Shown here piece after piece: positions 13,004 through 23,374 of a DNA stretch of 25,359 bases. Positions within the stretch are counted from its first letter, which is position 1. Each line of letters opens with the position of its first letter. Where the stretch lies: the IMG/VR virus record IMGVR_UViG_3300024255_000146, positions 1-25,359 of that record, one strand, 5' to 3'. Both the position numbers and the translations under genes were made by a program. This stretch comes from a virus. Under the pieces are notes generated by a model. It saw only the letters and a list, made by a program, of their open reading frames with translations. It was not told the origin of the DNA and ran no database searches.

Positions 13004-13099
13004 TTTTTTTCTCCTATAAAAAGTAGTCCTATGCCCGTTCTATGAGCTACGCTGTGGGTACAGCATAAGTCCGCCTTGCGGCACACTATTTGACATTAG
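13004..13099 (-). promoter_or_regulatory. Structured 5' leader of the 134-aa gene
   Basis: On the minus strand, after GATAAATACTA, there is a small hairpin readable as GCC-GCAA-GGC (13073-13082). An 8-bp stem TATGCTGT/ACAGCGTA with loop ACCC (13048-13067, one G-U pair) follows. The TATAGGAG ribosome site comes last. It may stabilise the mRNA or tune translation. Confidence 0.4.
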
Positions 13100-13595
13100 T
13101 ATTTATCAATTCTTTAGAGTAACGTCTAATACCTAAAACCTTACTAGGAGAATAGAAGTCATATCTCACTTCGTTGCGTTGATTGCCGCCTAGTATGATC
13201 CAATATTCTCTACCGTTGTGTGTTTGGGTGTCAACATAGAATCCTACATGTCCTTCCCATCCTTGGTTGCCTCTTGGAAACACCACAACATCTCCACGCT
13301 GTATGTCTTCACGAGTTACAGGTTCTCCCCAATACAAAAAACTTCTAGCCATTAGTGGAGGATATTTAGTTTGATTGTTTAGGTTAGGAATGTTATCTAT
13401 TTCTAATACACTGTTGACAAATGCTGCACACCATTCTATACGCACAGGATCTATGTCCAACAGTTCTTTTAGTTCTGCTCTGTGGGACCTTTCTTCTAAT
13501 CCAATATAAGGCTGTGCTGTTACTACACTGTCAATTGAAATTGCTGGGGAAGAACAAGCTGCTAAAAAAGATAATAAAAAAATTAAACGTTTCAC
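13086..13595 (-). CDS. Lipoprotein NlpC/P60/CHAP-like (TIGR02594-type) cell-wall hydrolase
   Basis: The longest frame begins at a TTG at 13625 inside the capsid terminator, so I place the start at the GTG at 13595, giving 169 aa. No good ribosome site is seen. The N-terminus MKRLIFLLSFLAAC is a lipoprotein signal with lipobox L-A-A-C and lipidated Cys14. The catalytic features of papain-like peptidoglycan hydrolases follow: WCAAFVN (Cys56), GHVGFY (His116) and ILGGNQ (Asn138). The family cleaves peptide bonds in murein. In a phage this suggests lysis, or wall opening during entry, from a membrane-anchored form. Placement between the capsid gene and a virion-protein gene implies late expression. 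A lipid-anchored lysin is unusual, and the exact role is inferred. Confidence 0.75.
   Translation of the reverse strand: MKRLIFLLSFLAACSSPAISIDSVVTAQPYIGLEERSHRAELKELLDIDPVRIEWCAAFVNSVLEIDNIPNLNNQTKYPPLMARSFLYWGEPVTREDIQRGDVVVFPRGNQGWEGHVGFYVDTQTHNGREYWIILGGNQRNEVRYDFYSPSKVLGIRRYSKELINTNVK
13100..13107 (-). promoter_or_regulatory. Candidate late promoter GATAAATA inside the hydrolase 3' end
   Basis: Minus-strand GATAAATACTA lies in the last codons of the hydrolase gene, ~97 bases before the ATG of the 134-aa gene. It matches the element before the 1108-aa gene over 11 bases. Confidence 0.4.
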
Positions 13596-13606
13596 AGAAT
13601 ATTTAG

Positions 13607-13636
13607 TCAAAAAAATAGGCCCCAAAGGGCCTATTT
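13607..13636 (-). terminator. Strong terminator after the major capsid gene
   Basis: The minus strand has AAATAGGCCC, loop TTTG, then GGGCCTATTT: a perfect 10-bp stem (13613-13636) continuing into a run of seven T. It lies 22 bases after the capsid stop codon and would insulate the highly expressed capsid message. Confidence 0.85.
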
Positions 13637-13657: not shown

Positions 13658-14836
13658 TTAGCTGAAGGTTACTGATGTGTCAGTAATAGCAACGTTACCT
13701 AAGTAATCAGCTGCGTTACCAAGCGATGATGCTGTGTTGTTTAACTCAACATATCCGTAACGTGTCATAAATGACACTGTTGGTTCGAATGATGTTGGGT
13801 CAAGCACAACGCCTGAGCTCATTAGCGGGATGTATGGGCAATAGAATGCCGCTGCATCTGATTCGCTTGAACCTTTGTAGCCGATTAGTACTGCTGCATC
13901 GTCTGCTGCATATGTGTTTACATATACTTTCATTGCATTGTTCAATGTACCAACCATTTTAGTGTTAGTTGGTGCTTCGAATGTACCTTCTGTTGTTCTT
14001 GCGAACGCTGAAGTTGTAGCAGACTGTAGGATAGTTAGTGCGAATGGTGATACCACTGCCCAGTTACCTGCGCCTCTACGTGTACGCTGTGCAATCAAGT
14101 TACTTACGCGGTTGATTTGTACTGCTAGTGCAGCATGCTCATCACCTACGAAAGTAGCTGTACCTGATACTGCGCCTTGGTTGTATGTTTGTGCCGCTGC
14201 GCCAGATAGTGTTGTAAGCGATCCAATTACTTCTTGGTCGATTTCAGCAGTAATCTCTTGAGCAAGTGCTGCCATGATTTCTGCTTCAACGTCAATACCG
14301 TGCATTGACTGCGCATCTTGAGCAGCTTCAAAAGTCCAACGAGCACTCAACTTACGAGTTTTCGCTTCAACTGTCTGCTTTAAGATTTGGATTGACATTT
14401 TACGTCCAGCTGCACCTTCTAGTGTTGCTGTACTGTCTGCTTTGCCTGTGTTTGCACCTGAATACTGTTCAGCAATTTTGAATGGGCTTAGAGCTTCTTC
14501 ACCTGCTGTAGTACCAACAATCGCACCGTTAGCTGCGACTGTGTCACTGTAACGTACACGTAATGTGTGGATCTGACCAACTGGTCCAGTCATTGGCTGT
14601 ACGCCGACTAGTTCGTTAGCAATAACTGTTGGCATAACACGTCTGATAACTGGTAGGATAACACGGTTAAGTGTTGCTACGTTACCTGCACTTGTTGCGC
14701 CTGCTGTTGCACTCTCTGACAAATACTTGCGAGTGTTTTCTAGTGTAGCAGCCATCACAGACTTCTTGTTGCCTTGCAGGCCTTCAAGAAGAGCAGTTTT
14801 GGTGTCTACCCAGCGTGATTCTAGTAGTTCTGACAT
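13658..14836 (-). CDS. 23: Major capsid protein, T4 gp23-like
   Basis: The frame opens ATGATG; the second ATG (14836) has the better spacing to GGAG, giving MSELLESRW and 392 aa. The order of gp21-, gp22- and gp23-like genes, and sequence such as NVATLNRVILPVIRRVMPTV and GPVGQIHTLRVRYSD, identify the gp23 family, which forms the hexameric shell. It is shorter than T4 gp23 (521 aa). A likely prohead-protease site, LSE|SATAG, lies after Glu41. It fits the gp21 rule (L/I)-x-E before a small residue and would release the N-terminal scaffold-binding peptide. No gp24-like vertex gene follows in this window. A strong terminator directly downstream fits high expression. Confidence 0.95.
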   Translation of the reverse strand: MSELLESRWVDTKTALLEGLQGNKKSVMAATLENTRKYLSESATAGATSAGNVATLNRVILPVIRRVMPTVIANELVGVQPMTGPVGQIHTLRVRYSDTVAANGAIVGTTAGEEALSPFKIAEQYSGANTGKADSTATLEGAAGRKMSIQILKQTVEAKTRKLSARWTFEAAQDAQSMHGIDVEAEIMAALAQEITAEIDQEVIGSLTTLSGAAAQTYNQGAVSGTATFVGDEHAALAVQINRVSNLIAQRTRRGAGNWAVVSPFALTILQSATTSAFARTTEGTFEAPTNTKMVGTLNNAMKVYVNTYAADDAAVLIGYKGSSESDAAAFYCPYIPLMSSGVVLDPTSFEPTVSFMTRYGYVELNNTASSLGNAADYLGNVAITDTSVTFS

Positions 14837-14846
14837 CATAATCTCC

Positions 14847-15950
14847 TTAATTTAATCCAGCAAGACGGCGTATGTCTAAGACATTGTTGTTTGAGTCGTC
14901 TGCTTTAGTTGTCATTGTTTTTGTTTCGGGTCTGTTGCCTGTTACTTCTGTGCCTTCTGTAATTACTGCCTTACGCTTTGCTGGAGTATTTCCGTCAATA
15001 ACTGATGGTAAGTACTTATCGAAAGACTTTTGTAGTCTATCTGTCTGTACTGATTCCAGTAAGTCTGTCATAATCTCACGCTGATCTTTGCCTAGTGGCG
15101 AAATCAATGAGTTCATAATCTTAGTTCTCTTTGCTGATTCAACTAAACGAGATTTCTCTTTGTTTGCTGATTCTGCAAGAGTTTTTGCTTTTGTAGCAAA
15201 TGCTTTGGCTTCTGCTAGTTGCTTGTCTTTAGCAGCTAGTACACCCATTAGTTTACTTACTTCTGAATTTTCATTCAAGTGTGAAGAAGTATACTCGTTT
15301 GCAAATGCTTCAAATATCTTACGACCAAAGTCGTTGCTTCGTGCTATATCAATATCTTCTTTCAATGAAGCAATTTCACCTTTAAGTGATTTACCGACCA
15401 TTTCAGATACTGCTGTAGCACTTCTTTCGATAAAGTTAGCTTTAACTTTAGCGAAGTGTGTTTTAGCTTCACGTACTAAACGTACTTTTGTTTCAGCTAA
15501 GTCTTTTTTGTCTTCTGCAAATTCTGCAATTTCACCTGCTAGAGATTCAACAACAAACTCTTCAAGCTTGGCATATGATTCAGCCATTGCTTTCTTGTCT
15601 GCTCTTAATTCTTTAATTTCGTTTGCTAAGTTTTCAGCAACGAAACCCTTCAGTAGATCTGCATTTTCACGTTGGGCAACAGCATATTTTGCTTTTGCTT
15701 CTGCTAGTTGTTTGCGGTCCTCTGCAAACTCTGCGATCTCTTCAGCAAGACGCTCAGATAGTAGTGAGTCAATAGCTTCAACCATAGTTGACTTATCGTG
15801 CTCATACTTTTGTGCAAATTCTTCGCGTAACTCAGCAGTTACCTGCATTTTGTTTTCTTGAATCTTTGCTTCCCAAGCTTCTTCAATTTGTTCTCTAACC
15901 TCAGATGAAACAACATCGTTTTCAAATAGAGTTTTTATTGCATCTATCAT
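14847..15950 (-). CDS. 22: Prohead core scaffold protein, T4 gp22-like
   Basis: The longest frame starts at 15968, overlapping the gp21 stop as ATGA. The ATG at 15950 is preceded by CAGGAGAAAGTA, so MIDAIKTLFEND (367 aa) is the preferred start. The protein is highly charged, almost all helical and Gly/Pro-poor, as expected of the internal scaffold. A ~22-residue unit (xLAxEIxEFAED-K-x-LAE) recurs at about residues 71, 111, 140 and 191 of the long frame. Several L/I-x-E sites could be cut by gp21 when the core is degraded. The C-terminus holds a more compact part (LISPLGKDQREIMTDLLESV, RLQKSFDKYLPSV). It lies between protease and capsid genes exactly as in T4. Confidence 0.93.
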   Translation of the reverse strand: MIDAIKTLFENDVVSSEVREQIEEAWEAKIQENKMQVTAELREEFAQKYEHDKSTMVEAIDSLLSERLAEEIAEFAEDRKQLAEAKAKYAVAQRENADLLKGFVAENLANEIKELRADKKAMAESYAKLEEFVVESLAGEIAEFAEDKKDLAETKVRLVREAKTHFAKVKANFIERSATAVSEMVGKSLKGEIASLKEDIDIARSNDFGRKIFEAFANEYTSSHLNENSEVSKLMGVLAAKDKQLAEAKAFATKAKTLAESANKEKSRLVESAKRTKIMNSLISPLGKDQREIMTDLLESVQTDRLQKSFDKYLPSVIDGNTPAKRKAVITEGTEVTGNRPETKTMTTKADDSNNNVLDIRRLAGLN

Positions 15951-15964
15951 TACTTTCTCCTGTT

Positions 15965-16588
15965 TCATTGGAGTTTACTAATCATGTTGATTAGTGATTC
16001 CTTAAGATACTTTTGTGCCTTTGTGTCGTGCTTAGTTGCCTGTGCTAATTCGTATGCCTTCATTCCCCCACGTGCATTCATAAGTGTTTCATAAATTGGT
16101 GTTGGATATGCACCAGGGGCGCTAGGCTGAGCCACAACGTCCACAGTGATTATTTCAAAATCAGAGACGGTATTGCTACCGTCATCTGCTACATTACCGC
16201 TACCACGTGACGAGACGCCTAGTTTAACTCCGCTTTCAAGCATTGTTTTAACTAGGTTCCCCATCGGTGTTGGTAAAATTTTCAGTTTTCCATAACCGTT
16301 ATCGCCATCCATCCAACATTCAGTTATCATATGGCTAACACGGTCAATATTGATATTAAGACCTTCGGGATGATCAACTTCTCCGAGAACACTGTATCCT
16401 CCAGTAATTTGATCATTGAGAGTTTTGACAGCCCTGCCGATTTCATCTACAGGATACACTCGCTGATTAGCGTTGCGAACACCACCTTGGATCATAATAC
16501 CTTTTAAATAAAGGTCTTTTCCTTCGTTGGCATTCTCAAGCACTATATTAGCTTGGTCGAATGTCAAATGCTCTTGTAAGTTTTTCAT
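15965..16588 (-). CDS. 21: Prohead maturation protease, T4 gp21-like (peptidase U9/S78-related)
   Basis: I use the ATG at 16588, with TAAGGA upstream; a TTG three bases earlier is less likely. The 207-aa protein has the fold and active-site signature of herpes/HK97-like prohead proteases. His73 lies in GEVDHPE, and one of the Ser pair lies in LGVSSRG (126/127), followed by the beta strand FEIITVDVVAQPSAPGA. It cleaves the scaffold, capsid protein and core proteins after (L/I)-x-Glu during head maturation. Its C-terminal helix (AQKYLKESLINMISKLQ) includes a possible autocleavage LKE|S. The stop overlaps the first ATG of the scaffold frame, indicating coupled expression. Confidence 0.95.
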   Translation of the reverse strand: MKNLQEHLTFDQANIVLENANEGKDLYLKGIMIQGGVRNANQRVYPVDEIGRAVKTLNDQITGGYSVLGEVDHPEGLNINIDRVSHMITECWMDGDNGYGKLKILPTPMGNLVKTMLESGVKLGVSSRGSGNVADDGSNTVSDFEIITVDVVAQPSAPGAYPTPIYETLMNARGGMKAYELAQATKHDTKAQKYLKESLINMISKLQ

Positions 16589-16611
16589 CAATTAGTCCTT
16601 ACTATCGCTTC

Positions 16612-17577
16612 TTATTTGCCTACAACAGATTTTTTGTTGTCAGCAGTCTCTGGCTTCGACTTCTTTTCAGCGCCGTGTCCAGGTTCGGTTTTGCCAGCTT
16701 TTGCTGCCTTACCACCAGGAACGTTAACGTTCTTGGTATTCATGTCCTTTGCACCTGTATCACTTAAAGCATTACCTTTAACTGTACTTCCTGCTCCGGC
16801 TTCTGCGCTTGCATCTGAACCAGCTTGGTTTAAATTACCTGCTGTTCCGCCCATGTTGTTTGCGCCTGCTACTGATGACTTGGTGTTTGCACCGTTGTCG
16901 CCCATTGTAGCTGATACTTTTTCTACATACTCACGCATTGTTTCGCCTGCTGACTTTTCAGTTTCTTCAACTTCTTCGTCTGCTGCTTCTTCAACTTCTT
17001 CGTCAGCTGCTTCTTCAACTTCTTCGTCGCTTGCTTCAAACGCGAATGATTCTTCTTCTGGCTCTTCTTCAGCGTCCATATCCATGTCGCCTTCGTCATC
17101 GCCTTCGTCACCAGCCATCATTTTTTCAAATTCAGCTTTTAGGTCGTCTAGCGCATCTTCTAGGTCTTCTACACGATCTTCAACATCGCCTTCTTCGTCG
17201 CCTTCTTCACCTTCATCATCCATGTTCATGCCTAAGTCATTAGCTAAGTCGCCTGTCTGGTCTGTTGGACCCATGTCGTCGTCTGCTTCAACTTCAAATG
17301 TATCCAAGTCAAAGTTTTCTTCTAAGTCATCATCTGATTCATCTAGGTCTTCGTCTGACTCATCTACTTCTTCATCTGACTCATCTACTTCTTCGTCAGT
17401 AGCTTCATCTACTTCTTCGTCAGTAGCTTCATCAACTTCTGCTTCGTCTTCTAGTAGTGATTCATAAATGTCACGTGATTTTTCAACTACAATCTCGTGG
17501 AATAATTCTTGTGCTGCTGCTTTGTCTTCGTTAACAAGTAGCTCTAGCATCTTTTCAAATTTGTTTTGATCTGCCAT
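16612..17577 (-). CDS. Acidic prohead-core-like protein (gp67/gp68 position)
   Basis: The open frame extends to 17637, but the ATG at 17577 has TATAGGAGTTTAAAA before it. It starts MADQNKFEKMLELLVNEDKA and gives 321 aa. The N-terminal ~45 residues are a helical block (ELFHEIVVEKSRDIYESLLE) resembling short prohead-core proteins of T4-like phages. Two runs of acidic eight-residue repeats follow (TDEEVDEA type, then DEEVEEAA type), separated by a coiled-coil-like stretch VEDRVEDLEDALDDLKAEFE. The tail is Gly/Ala/Asn/Lys rich and probably disordered. Its place directly before the protease equals T4 genes 67/68, whose products help build the prohead core. The equation with gp68 is by position and N-terminal character only. 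Confidence 0.75.
   Translation of the reverse strand: MADQNKFEKMLELLVNEDKAAAQELFHEIVVEKSRDIYESLLEDEAEVDEATDEEVDEATDEEVDESDEEVDESDEDLDESDDDLEENFDLDTFEVEADDDMGPTDQTGDLANDLGMNMDDEGEEGDEEGDVEDRVEDLEDALDDLKAEFEKMMAGDEGDDEGDMDMDAEEEPEEESFAFEASDEEVEEAADEEVEEAADEEVEETEKSAGETMREYVEKVSATMGDNGANTKSSVAGANNMGGTAGNLNQAGSDASAEAGAGSTVKGNALSDTGAKDMNTKNVNVPGGKAAKAGKTEPGHGAEKKSKPETADNKKSVVGK
16964..17035 (-). repeat. 24-bp tandem repeat, three copies, in the acidic protein gene
   Basis: The plus strand repeats tcttcaacttcttcgtc plus a seven-base tgctgct-type ending three times with few changes. It encodes DEEVEEAA units. Confidence 0.85.
17356..17443 (-). repeat. 24-bp/18-bp tandem repeat array in the acidic protein gene
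   Basis: The plus strand repeats units built around tcatctacttcttc, with either gtcagtagct or an atctgac ending. It encodes TDEEVDEA and SDEEVDE units. Copy number is likely variable through slippage. Confidence 0.75.
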
Positions 17578-17671
17578 TTTTAAACTCCTATAAATGTTTT
17601 TGTTGCACAGAAGAAGTCTCCTGTACGGGGCTGTCATAATATATTTACTCTATTAACAGAAAAGTACGTAG

Positions 17672-17703: not shown

Positions 17704-18288
17704 TTAGGTAAGATTGAACAGTTTTTTAAACTCTTCAATCGAAATATGCGATAAATTGTCGATTCTAGTCAACTCATTTGGTATAAAAGCGTTTTCTCCT
17801 AACACTCTTATATATCTTTTTTGATTAAATTTTTGACAAGTAATACAGGTTTGATTAAGCCAATTTCCGTGATATGTTGCACGGTCATGGCTTTTTTTGT
17901 AGTTTGGAGTGCTTGCATATATGTTATTAATTTTTTCTTCGATTCCTTGATAATCAAAACCTAATATATAAACATCACTAATGTCATGTGTACTAGCTAA
18001 CCAAAGTGCTGTAGGACCACTACTCCATCCCTTGCTAGGATTAAAAAAATTAAATCCATTCATTCCTCTAAATGCACGATTGGGATTAGTCCATACTTCA
18101 TGACTGTGTTGATATCCTGCTTTGTTAATTTCTAAAATCATTTTAGTATCAACTGCAACAAGATAATCAGGTTCAAAGTCTCTATACAATGCATTGCATC
18201 CGTATAAAGTTCCAAAAGATTTTAATTGATGTAGATCAATAGGTTTTCGACTAGTGCCGTTTCCAAGCACGAACGCTATTTTTTGCAA
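17704..18288 (-). CDS. GT42/DUF115-like Rossmann-fold protein, possible glycosyltransferase (194 aa)
   Basis: The protein begins MQKIAFVLGNGTSRKPIDL. GNG-(P/T)-S at residues 9-13 is the nucleotide-sugar-binding turn seen in GT42 sialyltransferases (CST-I/II) and in DUF115-type proteins. YGCNALYRDFEPDYLVAVD (29-47) and WSSGPTALWLA...VYILGFDYQG (88-115) correspond to the later signature of those families, which has the form TSG-x-YA-x-AIAL...YL-x-GIDF. A His/Tyr-containing stretch SHDRATYHGNW follows at 133-143 and could carry a catalytic base. It lies inside the head-assembly operon between the small post-portal gene and the acidic core gene. A virion- or envelope-glycan-modifying enzyme is the best guess; the substrate is unknown, and a non-catalytic Rossmann protein is possible. 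Confidence 0.6.
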   Translation of the reverse strand: MQKIAFVLGNGTSRKPIDLHQLKSFGTLYGCNALYRDFEPDYLVAVDTKMILEINKAGYQHSHEVWTNPNRAFRGMNGFNFFNPSKGWSSGPTALWLASTHDISDVYILGFDYQGIEEKINNIYASTPNYKKSHDRATYHGNWLNQTCITCQKFNQKRYIRVLGENAFIPNELTRIDNLSHISIEEFKKLFNLT

Positions 18289-18291
18289 TTA

Positions 18292-18537
18292 TCATACTCC
18301 GGATTCTGCATTTGCTGCTATACCATACATTTGCTTTACGAACGTTTGTTCTTTACGCTTTTCTTCTGTATGTAGCTCACTTGCTTTCCGGATTCGATTA
18401 ATTTGACTTAGAGATAGTCTTGTTTTACGGGTATCTTTTTTATCCATAGGAGAGTCATCATAGTCTGCCTCGTAGCGTTTGTCTTCTACAGAGTCAACAG
18501 TTTCTGGGTCGTGATAAAATATTTCTCTAAGTATCAT
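18292..18537 (-). CDS. Small conserved head-operon protein after the portal (81 aa)
   Basis: A longer frame reaches a TTG at 18582 inside the portal gene, but the first ATG is at 18537, giving MILREIFYHDPETVDSVED. The protein is charged and probably helical (TRKTRLSLSQINRIRKASEL, FVKQMYGIAAN), with no membrane segment. It follows the portal gene and ends three bases before the GT42-like gene, the place of the short prohead-core gene in T4. I cannot confirm homology to gp67. A TATAAATA late promoter overlaps the portal stop and ends only five bases before this ATG. Its own transcript would be leaderless, and there is no nearby Shine-Dalgarno sequence. Confidence 0.75.
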   Translation of the reverse strand: MILREIFYHDPETVDSVEDKRYEADYDDSPMDKKDTRKTRLSLSQINRIRKASELHTEEKRKEQTFVKQMYGIAANAESGV

Positions 18538-18541
18538 ATTG

Positions 18542-18549
18542 TATTTATA
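18542..18549 (-). promoter_or_regulatory. T4-type late promoter TATAAATA overlapping the portal stop codon
   Basis: Minus-strand TATAAATAC is a perfect match to the T4 late consensus and contains the portal TAA. The expected start site lies at about the A of the next ATG (18537). Confidence 0.6.
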
Positions 18550-20311
18550 TCGTTTGTTCAGTTCCTGGGGCCGGCGCTCCAAGTTCTTGTCCTGTTACAG
18601 TATCCGGTGCAGTTCCGTCTCCGCCGTCTTCACCACCAGCACCTTCTGGTGCTTCGTCTTCTATGCCACCTAAATCGTCAGCAATGCCTGCACTGCTAAT
18701 GCCTGCGTCACGCATTTCTGCACTTGGATCTCCTGGTGTTGGTTCTAAGTTTTCTTCATTCTCTTCGCGCCACAACCGTTCGTTTTCTGCAAGTTCTTCT
18801 TCTGACATGCCTAAGAAACGTTGCATTGCAAATCTATTTGAAATGTAAGGTATTGCACTCATCTGTGTAAATGTCGGTATACGTGCATTATCAATTTCAC
18901 TTTGTCTATAACTTGCAAAGTTTTGTGGAGGCTGAAACTTTAAATCAAACATTGCTGTATCAATGTTTACACCTTTGTCAAGTAAGTAGCGTTTAAATTC
19001 TGTATCAAATTCTTCTGCTACTAGATTTTGTAAACGTTCGCAATATGTATTAAATCTTAATTCTTGTATGTAAGCAGTTCCGACTCGTCCGTCATTGTAC
19101 TGACTAGCACTGTCGTCAGCGCCTGTAGGCAAGTAACTGCTAGGAATTCGTAAACCGCGTACGAGCTTATTAGTAAAATATCTAAGGTCATCAATCTCTC
19201 CTAGGTTAGTACCGCCTGGTAGTGTTTCAACTTTTGATCCTCTACCTTCAGCAGTTTGTGGGAAAAAGTAATCTTCGTTAATTGACAACGGATTGTAAGA
19301 ACTGTCTATGACATTTTGGCCTCCGCCTGTTGACGATGGGATACGTCTTTGATGTATTTCCGTTTTAACACGTTCCACAAACTGCATAGCAAGGTGTGAA
19401 GGCATGTTGCCCACATCAACGTAGAATACTCTGCGCTCAGGCGCACGTTGGACGCGATAGATAATAATCGCATCTTCAAGCAGTTCTTTCTGCTTGTATA
19501 CTTTGAAAATAGTTTCTAATAAACTATTACCAAAAGGATAATTGTTGTCTAAGCCTTCTGAAAGACTTAAATGTACAACATGTTCTGCATCAACAGTAAA
19601 TTCACTATCATCAGTTGTAAAACGTGAACCACTCATACTTGACTGTGGCCCTACCATACCTTTGGCTCCGCCACCGCCTACTGTACTAGAACTATTATAT
19701 TGTCCGCCGCCTGCTGGACTCATGTTGCCATTGTTTACATATGGAGTTGTTGCAACACCGTCTTTAAAATTAAAGTTTACATTTTTAATTACATATTGCT
19801 CAGGAACTTTACCTTCGCTCTCATTTACGATAATACGTGTTACGTTTGCAGGATCAACATGAAACCATTTTTTAGTTTCTGGATCTCTTAGGAAAAATTG
19901 ATCTCCCATTTTAAATACATTGCGTAGTATTCTAAATATTTTTGTTTCAAAATTTTGTAGTTTATTCCACTGTTGCAAATACTGTCCAATAATAGTAATT
20001 TCACTATTAGTTGCAGGTTTGCCTCTATAATCTACAATAAACGGAGTATTGTTTTGTTTGTTTTTTTGTGTACAAAACTCAGCAAGAATATCAAGAGCAG
20101 CATTAACTTCACTGTCTTGATCCATTGTGTTATATTGTCCGTAGCGTTCAACTCTATTTGGACTACCAACATAAACATCAGGCAAATAGCTCGAATAATT
20201 AGAACGTGCCGGGCCAGCCATATTACCATTACCGCGGCTTGTAAACGGAGAATAACTTCCGTTTTGGTTATCACCTGTCGGTACTGGTGTAAAATATTTT
20301 TTCCACGACAT
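18545..20311 (-). CDS. 20: Portal vertex protein, T4 gp20-like
   Basis: The ATG at 20311 follows AAGGAGCAATAAAAG. The N-terminus has MSWKKYFTPV, and residues 53-80 contain RVERYGQYNTMDQDSEVNAA, the characteristic gp20 portal start. Further motifs are YRVQRAPERRVFYVDVGNMP and EIDDLRYFTNKLVRGLRIPSSYLP. The C-terminal ~90 residues are acidic and Gly/Pro rich (GGIEDEAPEGAGGEDGGDGT) and likely disordered. At 588 aa it is slightly longer than T4 gp20 (524 aa). It forms the dodecameric portal for DNA packaging and tail joining, and nucleates prohead assembly. It lies between the tape-measure-like gene and the small head protein, with a 13-base gap upstream. Confidence 0.95.
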   Translation of the reverse strand: MSWKKYFTPVPTGDNQNGSYSPFTSRGNGNMAGPARSNYSSYLPDVYVGSPNRVERYGQYNTMDQDSEVNAALDILAEFCTQKNKQNNTPFIVDYRGKPATNSEITIIGQYLQQWNKLQNFETKIFRILRNVFKMGDQFFLRDPETKKWFHVDPANVTRIIVNESEGKVPEQYVIKNVNFNFKDGVATTPYVNNGNMSPAGGGQYNSSSTVGGGGAKGMVGPQSSMSGSRFTTDDSEFTVDAEHVVHLSLSEGLDNNYPFGNSLLETIFKVYKQKELLEDAIIIYRVQRAPERRVFYVDVGNMPSHLAMQFVERVKTEIHQRRIPSSTGGGQNVIDSSYNPLSINEDYFFPQTAEGRGSKVETLPGGTNLGEIDDLRYFTNKLVRGLRIPSSYLPTGADDSASQYNDGRVGTAYIQELRFNTYCERLQNLVAEEFDTEFKRYLLDKGVNIDTAMFDLKFQPPQNFASYRQSEIDNARIPTFTQMSAIPYISNRFAMQRFLGMSEEELAENERLWREENEENLEPTPGDPSAEMRDAGISSAGIADDLGGIEDEAPEGAGGEDGGDGTAPDTVTGQELGAPAPGTEQTI

Positions 20312-20324
20312 CTTTTATTGCTCC

Positions 20325-23297
20325 TTATTGTCCAACATTACTTACCCCGCCACGGGCCAAATTACTAGACTGTATGTTTTTAGTGTTATTGGCTGTTCTT
20401 TCTTCAAAATCTTTTATATCCGAAAGTACTGCCAATACCTGTTGCATAGTACTATTTAACTGTTGAGAGCTCTGATTTGTCCCACTTGTGGACATACTAA
20501 TGCCGTTTAATAGCTCACCAGCATCAGCTCTACTAGTAAACAAAGTATCATTGTCTTTACTTAATTCTTCGTTTAAATTGGAAAGTGTTTCAACTAAAGC
20601 ATCCATAGCTTCAGTATAACTTCTAATTCCAGATGTGTCAAGTGTATTAACTGCATTAAGTTGTGTTTGCAGATTTGGTATTTCAGCAAATGTTTTTAAT
20701 CCGGTTGCAAAATCTGTAAAGTCTATGCCTGAAATACGCGAAAGCTTGTTTGGATTTAATCTGTTCATGCTTGTATTAAATTGATCAAAGCTTATTACAG
20801 AGACTCGTTCCATTCGACTTACTTGATCTTCTGTTAGCATTGCTGCTGCTGCTGAGCCTGCTGGCGCTGGGTTGACTGGAGGTGTTGGTGTGCCTGCTGG
20901 CGCGGTTTCGCCATCGCCTACTATCGCCTCGCCTGCTTTACCACCTAACCAACTACCACCAAAATAACCAAGAGCTCCGCCTATAGCGCCGCCGATAGCA
21001 GTACCAATAATCGGTACAAATGATCCTGCAATAGCGCCTGCTGCTGCGCCTGCTAATGCGCCGGTGCCGCCTCCGGCTGCTGATGAAACTCCAACAGTTT
21101 TTTCATCTCTGGTTAACGAATCGTCTGTTGCAATCATTCCAATTTCAGCAATACTTAGTAATGCTGCTAATGGGCCTAACAATCTAGATGCGCCGCGGCC
21201 TAAACCTGCTGCTGTTTTGCCCATTCCGCTGCCGCTTGTGCCTGGTGCATTATTTAAACTTGTAAATCTACCTGTTCTAGGATCTCTGCCAACAGTTGCG
21301 CCAGTTCCTGGAGCAACAGGAGTAGTACGAGGCATTACCATAGCCCTAGCACCTCTAGCCATCATCTTAGATGCGCCAGCCACCATTGCTAATGCCAGCG
21401 GACCACCGCCTGCAAATAGTACACCTGCGCCTACTACCATTGCTTTTGTAACGAGGCTTTGCTCACCCCACCAACTGGTAATGCCTTCAACTAATGCATC
21501 TCTAGCCTGATATAGCAATCCGCCTTCGCGATCAACTTCAACTTCCTTTTCACCGTCAGGTGTGTTTATCATTTTAGTATTAGGACCTAAGAACACATCT
21601 TTTATTAAATCAAATGTGAAAGCACCTATACCGCTTATTGCATCTTTAAAGAAATCTTTTATAAACACCATAGGATCTTCAGCTTCTTTAAAGTCAGTAA
21701 TAAATTGTTTAATTGCAGGACCTACAGTGTCACGTAACATATCTCCTATTGTTTGGAAGTGTCTAGCAATTCCTGTGCCTTCGATGTCATTTCCGTCTTC
21801 GTCTTTGTCAGGAGCAATCATTCCTGCTATTTCTCTCAGTGCAGGACCTATTGCTTCCATTAGAGGAGTAACAACTTCAGTTTGGAATGCTGCCTGCAGA
21901 GTTGCCAAACTTGCAGTAAATTCTGCCATAGTCTGTGTACTGGCAGCTCGTCTGTCTGCTTCAGCTTGTGCATCTTTTGCTGCTTGAAGGGCTCTTGCTG
22001 TATCAAGGTCACCGGTTACAGTAAGGTAGTCAGTATACTTTAAGCTTGCATCATTAAAGAATCCAGCAATGATGCCCAGGTCACCCTCAACACCAACTGC
22101 TGCTGCATCTAGCAGTGTTCCAAATTGAGTTGCTGAGTTTTTGTTTGCTTCCATCAATGCTACATTGTCAGTAAGAATTTTTGTTGACATATCACTAACT
22201 GATATTGCTTTATCTTGCGCCGTGTTCAAGCTGTTTGTTAGTATGCCCATTTGTGTGCCCATGGTTGCAGTATACAAACGAGCCTCTTCTGTAACAGGAG
22301 GCATATTTAAGAATTCAGCTGCTAGTGCATCTACAGCAGCTTTGCCGCCAGCTGCTTGTGCTTGCTGCATAGCCATGTTTACTTTGGCTTGTTCGTCTGC
22401 GCTCATTGTTGCAAGTTTTCGTTGGAAGGCTACCTGTTGCAATTTTTGTTGAATTTCTGCTTCAGCTGCTTTTGCTTCTTTGCCAGACAGCTTGGCAAGT
22501 GTGGTCAAATGTTTTGCATAATCTCCTGCAACTGCTGCTGTTCTTTTTAGTTCTTCACCTTCTAAACGCTTGCCTCTGTTACCAGCTCGTGTTAGATATT
22601 GGAAGTCTAGCATTGCTTCATTGATTTCTTCAAAAGTAAAACCCATGTTCAACATGCTGTCTACCATGTCCCTATTACTAGCTGTCATTCTAGCAACCAT
22701 TTTTGCACCTTGGGTTGCTGTTCCTCCAAACGCTGCTAGCTTGTCAGTGTTTGCTGAAATAAATCCAACAAATTCATCAAGACCTAAACGAGCAGTGGCT
22801 GCTGAATTTCGCAATTCAACCAAACTATTGTTAAATGCTGCTCCAGATGTTGCTACATTCTGAAATGCAGCAAAGCTTTCATCAAATAAGCCAGTAAGTA
22901 TACCAAGTTTTCCGCCGATCAATGGTAATTGTCCAGCAAATGCAGTTAGTGATTTTTCACCAGCAACAAATGCTTTTACCATCTCTGTGCCGCTTCTTGC
23001 AACACTTGCAAATGCACCCAACAGTGCTCCGCCTGCAACACTGCTTAATTTTTTAAGAGCATTTGTTGATGCAGTGACTGCTTTGCTATTTGTTTTTATT
23101 GCATCTCTATTTTTGGTGCTTACAACAATGTTATCACCAGTTGCTTTACTAAGTGCAGTAAGTTTCTTGTTGACATCTTTGGGATCAATGCCAGCTTTTT
23201 TAGCCATGGCTTCTGTTACTGATATAAGACGTTGTAGTGTAACTTCACTAGCTACGCCATTGCCGCCTACATTGCCAATTTCTACTTCTTCAGCCAC
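20325..23297 (-). CDS. Tape-measure-like large tail protein (990 aa)
   Basis: It starts at GTG (23297) with TAGGAAACAAATA upstream: MAEEVEIGNVGGNGVASEV. The first ~350 residues are Ala/Lys/Glu-rich helices typical of tape-measure proteins (LTALSKATGDNIVVSTKNRD, EIQQKLQQVAFQRKLATMSA). A DKDEDGNDIEG stretch near residue 500 looks like an EF-hand-type DxDxDG loop. Hydrophobic helices follow at ~620-660, and a glycine-zipper stretch (GAIAGSFVPIIGTAIGGAIG) at ~742-790 could enter the host membrane. The C-terminus is helical and Asn/Ser rich. T4's own tape measure is gp29 in another cluster, so I call this by character, not by orthology. A structural tail or baseplate-hub protein is the alternative. 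Confidence 0.7.
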   Translation of the reverse strand: MAEEVEIGNVGGNGVASEVTLQRLISVTEAMAKKAGIDPKDVNKKLTALSKATGDNIVVSTKNRDAIKTNSKAVTASTNALKKLSSVAGGALLGAFASVARSGTEMVKAFVAGEKSLTAFAGQLPLIGGKLGILTGLFDESFAAFQNVATSGAAFNNSLVELRNSAATARLGLDEFVGFISANTDKLAAFGGTATQGAKMVARMTASNRDMVDSMLNMGFTFEEINEAMLDFQYLTRAGNRGKRLEGEELKRTAAVAGDYAKHLTTLAKLSGKEAKAAEAEIQQKLQQVAFQRKLATMSADEQAKVNMAMQQAQAAGGKAAVDALAAEFLNMPPVTEEARLYTATMGTQMGILTNSLNTAQDKAISVSDMSTKILTDNVALMEANKNSATQFGTLLDAAAVGVEGDLGIIAGFFNDASLKYTDYLTVTGDLDTARALQAAKDAQAEADRRAASTQTMAEFTASLATLQAAFQTEVVTPLMEAIGPALREIAGMIAPDKDEDGNDIEGTGIARHFQTIGDMLRDTVGPAIKQFITDFKEAEDPMVFIKDFFKDAISGIGAFTFDLIKDVFLGPNTKMINTPDGEKEVEVDREGGLLYQARDALVEGITSWWGEQSLVTKAMVVGAGVLFAGGGPLALAMVAGASKMMARGARAMVMPRTTPVAPGTGATVGRDPRTGRFTSLNNAPGTSGSGMGKTAAGLGRGASRLLGPLAALLSIAEIGMIATDDSLTRDEKTVGVSSAAGGGTGALAGAAAGAIAGSFVPIIGTAIGGAIGGALGYFGGSWLGGKAGEAIVGDGETAPAGTPTPPVNPAPAGSAAAAMLTEDQVSRMERVSVISFDQFNTSMNRLNPNKLSRISGIDFTDFATGLKTFAEIPNLQTQLNAVNTLDTSGIRSYTEAMDALVETLSNLNEELSKDNDTLFTSRADAGELLNGISMSTSGTNQSSQQLNSTMQQVLAVLSDIKDFEERTANNTKNIQSSNLARGGVSNVGQ

Positions 23298-23323
23298 TAT
23301 TTGTTTCCTAAGTTATGTGCGCA

Positions 23324-23331
23324 TATAAATA
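23324..23331 (+). promoter_or_regulatory. T4-type late promoter TATAAATA for the baseplate cluster
   Basis: Plus-strand TATAAATA is a perfect consensus match, 43 bases before the gp26-like ATG. It faces the minus-strand late promoter at 23356-23363. Confidence 0.65.
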
Positions 23332-23355
23332 ATAGAGATACATACTTATACATTG

Positions 23356-23363
23356 TATTTATA
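23356..23363 (-). promoter_or_regulatory. T4-type late promoter TATAAATA for the tape-measure/head operon
   Basis: Minus-strand TATAAATAC is a perfect consensus match ~58 bases before the GTG of the 990-aa gene. No terminator hairpin is seen before the acidic-core gene, so it may drive the whole head operon. Confidence 0.65.
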
Positions 23364-23374
23364 CGGAGAACTTA

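Follow-up and report, generated by a model that had tools for sequence, protein, structure and literature searches.

The head-assembly operon of a marine T4-like jumbo phage contains a gene whose 194-aa product almost certainly belongs to the GT42/DUF115 superfamily, as sequence profiles and a predicted fold agree in indicating. The best explanation overall, which we advance tentatively, is a late GT42/DUF115-type transferase acting on a component of the phage head. Our search of the literature found no described phage GT42-like head gene.

Results

The Gene within the Head Operon

The window, the whole stretch of 25,359 nucleotides that was analyzed, is a 25-kb IMG/VR fragment, and the neighbors of the GT42-like gene form a T4-type head operon on the minus strand. 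The operon runs from the portal protein gp20 (18545..20311; PF07230, E = 3.5e-109) through a 96-aa ORF that overlaps or abuts the portal gene and is a conserved synteny partner (18292..18582; phrog_13986), the GT42-like gene (17704..18288), an acidic, core-like protein of 341 aa (16612..17637), the prohead core protease gp21 of the peptidase S77 type (15965..16591; PF03420, E = 9.6e-27) and a scaffold-like protein in the gp22 position (14847..15968; phrog_10922, 1.7e-81, with a weak T4_CASP match) to the major capsid protein (MCP) gp23 (13658..14839; PF07068, E = 1.6e-98). The preliminary description had set the gene between portal and scaffold genes. Its location inside the head operon stands, while the immediate 3′ gene is the acidic core-type protein, followed by the protease and only then by the scaffold. 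Directly 3′ of the MCP gene, at 13086–13625, lies a gene for a CHAP/NlpC-like peptidoglycan hydrolase that is present in some relatives only and matches part of PHROG 1259 (hub/tail lysozyme).

The ORF at 17704–18288 was confirmed on the minus strand among the ORFs of the window. It begins with a TTG codon shortly after a GGAG, 3 nt beyond the stop of the 96-aa ORF, whose own true start is likely the ATG at 18535–18537, and the TTG is kept in short-form relatives. The gene is under purifying selection, with dN/dS of 0.05–0.20 against relatives. Many family members carry a basic N-terminal extension of ∼45–65 aa, which the window clade does not have. The extension is conserved as M/L-A-K-x-D-K-S-x-Y-x-K-x-E-W...RR in L004, L052, L055, L063, L065, and other loci, and in a related 335-kb contig a second protein (L176:13058) begins with the same type of sequence as that contig's head copy; one may guess at a head-targeting or nucleic-acid-binding tail.

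A T4-type late promoter –10 element, TATAAATA, is found at 23356..23363 on the minus strand, ∼60 nt upstream of the first gene of the operon (20325–23297), and among 25 relatives, some of them near-duplicates, 20 have it at the matching position. The count of the element by itself is uninformative (3 seen vs. 3.07 expected), and the weight is therefore carried by its conserved position and not by its number. Together with the operon context, the element supports the late expression of the head operon, the GT42-like gene included, that had been proposed earlier. The region 23298–23374, which separates the minus-strand head operon from a plus-strand gp26-like gene, holds a divergent pair of such elements, partly kept on both strands in relatives.

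Relationship to GT42 and DUF115 Proteins

The preliminary description had based its suggestion of GT42/DUF115 kinship on the motifs VLGNGTS, CNALY...DYLVAVD, and SSGPTALWLA...VYILGFDYQ. All of these are present in the ORF, and the resemblance goes beyond chance. As a single sequence, the protein matched the Pfam CST-I family (PF06002, GT42) at 15.1 bits and did not reach the gathering cutoff of 25, and NCBIfam profiles returned nothing useful, while PHROG 30607 matched at 1.8e-38 (133.5 bits). Among 34 family members, CST-I matches at E ≤ 1 occurred in 19 (best 3e-4) and MptE-like/DUF115 matches in 2. A paralog of 30% identity and the group of the Pelagibacter phage HTVC008M were then added to give a diverse alignment (A4). 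In a relative, the best MptE-like score was 19 bits, with the gathering score of PF01973 (34.6 bits) unreached, and a weak MptE-like Pfam match of 0.0013 was found in L314. When the A4 profile was searched against PDB sequences with hmmsearch, the best nine matches were all GT42 sialyltransferases (E = 0.00097–0.011), and these enzymes gave the only significant matches (E about 1e-3).

In profile–profile comparison with hhalign, the family scored 50.9 with a GT42 enzyme of Pasteurella and 48.5 with a bacterial DUF115 protein (L215) that is itself above the Pfam cutoff; among 222 unrelated phage proteins used as decoys, the maximum was 24.8. The single Pasteurella enzyme was taken as the GT42 reference because no GT42 protein above the cutoff was found among 295 genomes of one bacterial class. 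Weakly MptE-like ORFs of 205–220 aa, probably thiamin pyrophosphokinases (TPK), had scores at the decoy level.

An AlphaFold2 model based on the A4 alignment had a mean pLDDT of 90.4 and a pTM of 0.89. In a Foldseek search of the PDB, the top three matches were GT42 enzymes (E = 5.5e-4 to 1.2e-3): 9c08, a Pasteurella sialyltransferase; 1ro7, CstII with a CMP substrate analog; and 2p56, CST-I. Comparison with CstII had been named in advance as a test of the idea, and the predicted fold, with its putative pocket, places this enzyme among the closest structures. The TM-scores were moderate (0.39–0.51), and the likeness is therefore one at the superfamily level. MptE (8sd5) was fourth with E = 1.8e-3, and the human GT29 enzyme ST6GALNAC2 ranked lower. 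A first model, built from close relatives only, had ranked human GT29 and MptE/TPK above GT42, an order that the model from the diverse alignment reversed; among viral predictions, the matches of the first model include DUF115 and MptE-like phage proteins.

The family thus shares with the GT42 enzymes CST-I and CstII of Campylobacter and the Pasteurella multocida lipooligosaccharide α-2,3-sialyltransferase a Rossmann-type fold and the order and spacing of motifs, yet the window protein is shorter (194 aa vs. 258–303 aa). With DUF115/MptE-like proteins such as L215 and the Methanocaldococcus jannaschii HPPK (8sd5), it shares the fold and the elements GNGPS, N-A, P-x-Y/D...D, and GxD, yet it falls below the Pfam cutoff, and the C-terminal H-F...Y-F-G...W-H-P of the DUF115 proteins L215 and L216 is replaced by NNxY...NWxxQ. 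The phage proteins of PHROG 30607 (HTVC008M AGE60341.1 and the related Mosig QOI69104.1) belong to the same family, with the invariant columns common to the HTVC008M group, but are 267–281 aa long, with an insertion, and encoded near ssb/gp59.

Conserved Residues and the Putative Active Site

Twenty columns are invariant across 34 diverse members in A4, HTVC008M homologs included: G9, N10, G11, S13, R14, C31, N32, R36, V46, D47, W88, G91, A94, G110, D112, N121, N122, Y130, W143, and Q146. On the secondary structure of the model and the alignment, most of them would directly follow strands or sit at helix N termini, which we infer to be the nucleotide pocket of the fold. The motifs assigned to this pocket are G9-N10-G11-x-S13-R14, C31-N32, D47, S90-G91, and G110-x-D112. 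The GNG, CN, SG, and GxD elements (the first as GNGxS in the GT42 loop) align with G8-N9-G10, N31, S132-G133, and D154 of CstII and are invariant or nearly so; the loss of conserved residues across homologs, which would have spoken against the earlier idea, was not seen at these positions.

The canonical catalytic residues fared differently. In CstII, His188 is the general base and Arg129 contacts the (sialylated) acceptor (PMC4202792). His188 falls at or adjoining column 140 in two alignments, a column occupied among 108 members by F (41), H (36), and Y (27), with His in the window protein; for this reason, the canonical GT42 mechanism cannot apply across the family. Arg129 aligns with G87, and the arginine is absent. 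The family has instead its own invariant signature, N121-N122-x-Y124...Y130...N142-W143-x-x-Q146, and a phage head-operon context, both of which set it apart from CST-I and CstII. A proposed equivalence of Y124/Y130 with CstII Y156/Y162 was dropped, as Y156 aligns with the variable column 114. The alignments thus suggest that the family retains features of the donor site but neither the canonical base nor the acceptor features. The earlier interpretation is upheld as to fold and pocket, and not as to canonical catalytic residues: the protein is homologous to GT42/DUF115 proteins but should not be classed as a GT42 sialyltransferase. Sialic-acid synthesis was likewise dropped as a source of the donor, since a search of four related records found no NeuB.

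Distribution and History

The family is present in 160 loci overall. The order of portal, 96-aa ORF, GT42-like gene, acidic protein, and gp21 is kept in ∼80 of ∼80 IMG/VR loci, where the contig permits its reading; synteny in related phages had been named in advance as a check. The window gp21 is closest to the gp21 of jumbo phages (Sinorhizobium phage Phosso, Pseudomonas phages Cassandra and PA5oct, Agrobacterium phage Atu_ph07, and Salicola phage SCTP-2), and in the operons read of these phages no GT42-like gene lies between portal and protease; in PA5oct-type phages, no family member turned up close to the head genes. Among 56 gp21 relatives with readable portal and gp21, the gene is found between the two in 15 and is absent there in 41. 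The gp21 tree implied four changes as counted, with two rows (L283 and L290) labeled positive though their gene is 3′ of the MCP gene; without these, the tree requires either two gains or a single gain with a single loss, the loss clade being that of L252, L289, L301, and L304, and the gene was gained about once in the window clade.

In a sister lineage, 25 loci have the family gene a short distance 3′ of the MCP gene on the same strand. The head operon has thus acquired the family at least twice, at two independent positions. Two copies stand side by side in one locus (L112). In the cultured Pelagibacter phages HTVC008M and Mosig, the gene is near gp59/ssb, outside the head operon; the HTVC008M homolog (L082:1306-2751) has a carbamoyltransferase gene at a distance of ∼1.5 kb and two genes of the phytanoyl-CoA dioxygenase type nearby. 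The 335-kb contig also encodes a paralog of 28–32% identity (L176:11417-12530), beside genes for a 6-pyruvoyl tetrahydropterin synthase (PTPS) and a cupin/JmjC-like protein.

Sugar-Nucleotide Genes in Related Phages

The 335-kb contig, which lies in the bin of a Neomarinimicrobiota MAG, has the same head operon on board and is on this account a phage contig. It carries sugar-nucleotide genes and a PF02348 gene. Two contigs, PBPT01000016.1 (335 kb, G008:C57) and PBPT01000082.1 (153 kb, G008:C77), are binned in this GTDB MAG (RS350); their gene copies match the query equally, PF02348 is present in both, and they are likely a misbinned jumbo phage. On the minus strand at 160–192 kb of the 335-kb contig (L181:868 to L182:12457), ∼30 codirectional genes form an extensive cluster of sugar type that adjoins tail genes, with four radical SAM proteins, a UDPG/GDPM dehydrogenase, a DegT aminotransferase, a hexapeptide transferase, and tail collar and Peptidase_G2 domains.

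KdsB was found in all five contigs spanning both the head operon and the kds loci, with an adjacent KdsA in three; all five belong to a single clade, and a kdsB search was what brought up two of them. In the 335-, 155-, and 120-kb contigs, KdsB is next to KdsA, 74–88 kb downstream of the head operon. The two make a pair for CMP-Kdo synthesis, which was read at L343:1411-2839, L344:1408-3520, and L345:705-2205. KdsA scores above curated cutoffs, while KdsB matches essentially KdsB models only, below their cutoffs; for the 335-kb copy, PDB matches agree. Among 14 further contigs picked for kdsB, two have the head operon, and the transferase gene is present in both. No PF02348 match was obtained in five jumbo phages, complete or near-complete, that are without the GT42-like gene, in HTVC008M or Mosig, or on the other gene-bearing contigs tested (58–138 kb), which at the observed spacing would end short of the kds position. 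This kdsB is encoded by at least 131 viral stretches, and the metabolic genes reported from marine viruses include kdsA/kdsB (PMC10653327).

Discussion

The window protein is very likely an active enzyme, and a sugar transferase is the probable form of it. In the model that we propose, a small GT42/DUF115-superfamily transferase with a Rossmann-type fold that binds nucleotide sugars, located in the cytoplasm, would be made late, within the head transcription unit. Through the GNG-S, CN, SG, and GxD loops at the C-terminal edge of the sheet, it would bind an acidic sugar linked to CMP and move the sugar to a component of the assembling head, be it a portal, core, capsid, or decoration protein. 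The location of the gene and the CMP-Kdo genes make glycosylation of capsid or envelope plausible. The presence of the gene at two independent sites in the head operon favors a role in the virion, and a virion or head target is our tentative choice, slightly short of an even chance. Glycans on the capsid and tail-tube subunits of mycobacteriophages provide a precedent (Freeman et al. 2023, as cited in PMC12619734), though in different phages. CMP-Kdo comes into question as the donor because KdsB is encoded by these phages, next to KdsA wherever the adjoining sequence was read; it may perhaps be the donor, but this is doubtful, and the kds genes could instead serve the host LPS. The full combination, a CMP-Kdo-dependent new GT42-like subfamily that puts Kdo from the phage KdsA/KdsB on a jumbo-phage head protein by means of a catalytic residue other than the GT42 His, is improbable as a whole.

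A late transferase could also be directed at the envelope, altering LPS or capsule sugars of the host, for example by adding Kdo, and thereby blocking superinfection or the sticking of progeny to debris; the operon would then provide the timing only. Many DUF115 genes are located in polysaccharide clusters, the related phage encodes KdsA/KdsB and sugar-nucleotide clusters, and the HTVC008M homolog has its place outside the head operon, near a carbamoyltransferase gene. GT42 enzymes act on lipooligosaccharide (PMC4202792), and glycosyltransferase clusters of jumbo phages have been interpreted as O-antigen modifiers (Iyer et al. 2021, PMC7824862). An enzyme of this kind is nevertheless difficult to reconcile with a gene placed twice in the head operon and not in the phage's own sugar clusters, or with the lack of conservation at Arg129, the contact of CstII with a sialylated acceptor, and we consider it unlikely, if with appreciable weight. 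Modification of DNA at packaging would require hypermodified phage DNA, and DNA-modifying phage glycosyltransferases are known (cited in PMC12619734). The gene sits with head genes, however, not with those of replication, and no modified-base pathway was identified in this analysis. To our knowledge, GT42 is not a DNA glucosyltransferase family, and a DNA-glycosylating enzyme is highly improbable.

The same fold would also permit a nucleotide enzyme without glycosyl transfer, such as a pyrophosphotransferase of the MptE/TPK type or one of other nucleotidyl chemistry. The fourth rank of MptE in Foldseek, the high rank of MptE/TPK with the first model, the weak MptE-like Pfam matches, and the variable general base are all consistent with such an activity, as is the PTPS pterin gene adjoining the paralog. 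That neighbor belongs to the paralog and not to the head copy, however, the diverse profile matches GT42 and not MptE/TPK among PDB sequences, and the weakly MptE-like ORFs score like decoys, all of which makes this activity quite unlikely. We give similarly little credence to a catalytically dead descendant retained as a GT42-fold factor of head assembly or cargo. The general base is missing in about two thirds of the members, the location in the head operon is constant, and many members have the short basic N-terminal extension, yet many of the twenty invariant positions are polar (Asn, Asp, Arg, Tyr, and Gln) and placed at strand ends and helix starts, as expected for a ligand pocket, and the same set is invariant in the HTVC008M homologs outside the head operon.

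The finding places a predicted sugar transferase, fixed in the capsid-assembly operon, in a widespread group of aquatic jumbo phages, and PHROG 30607, filed as of unknown function, acquires a fold and a pocket together with candidate donors. Were the envelope its target, the transferase would be an enzyme against superinfection encoded in the head operon. If it acts on the virion, as we tentatively prefer, a sugar coat would be a built-in step of head assembly with an identifiable donor, and were Kdo the sugar placed on a head protein, a sugar of the bacterial LPS inner core would be found on a phage capsid.
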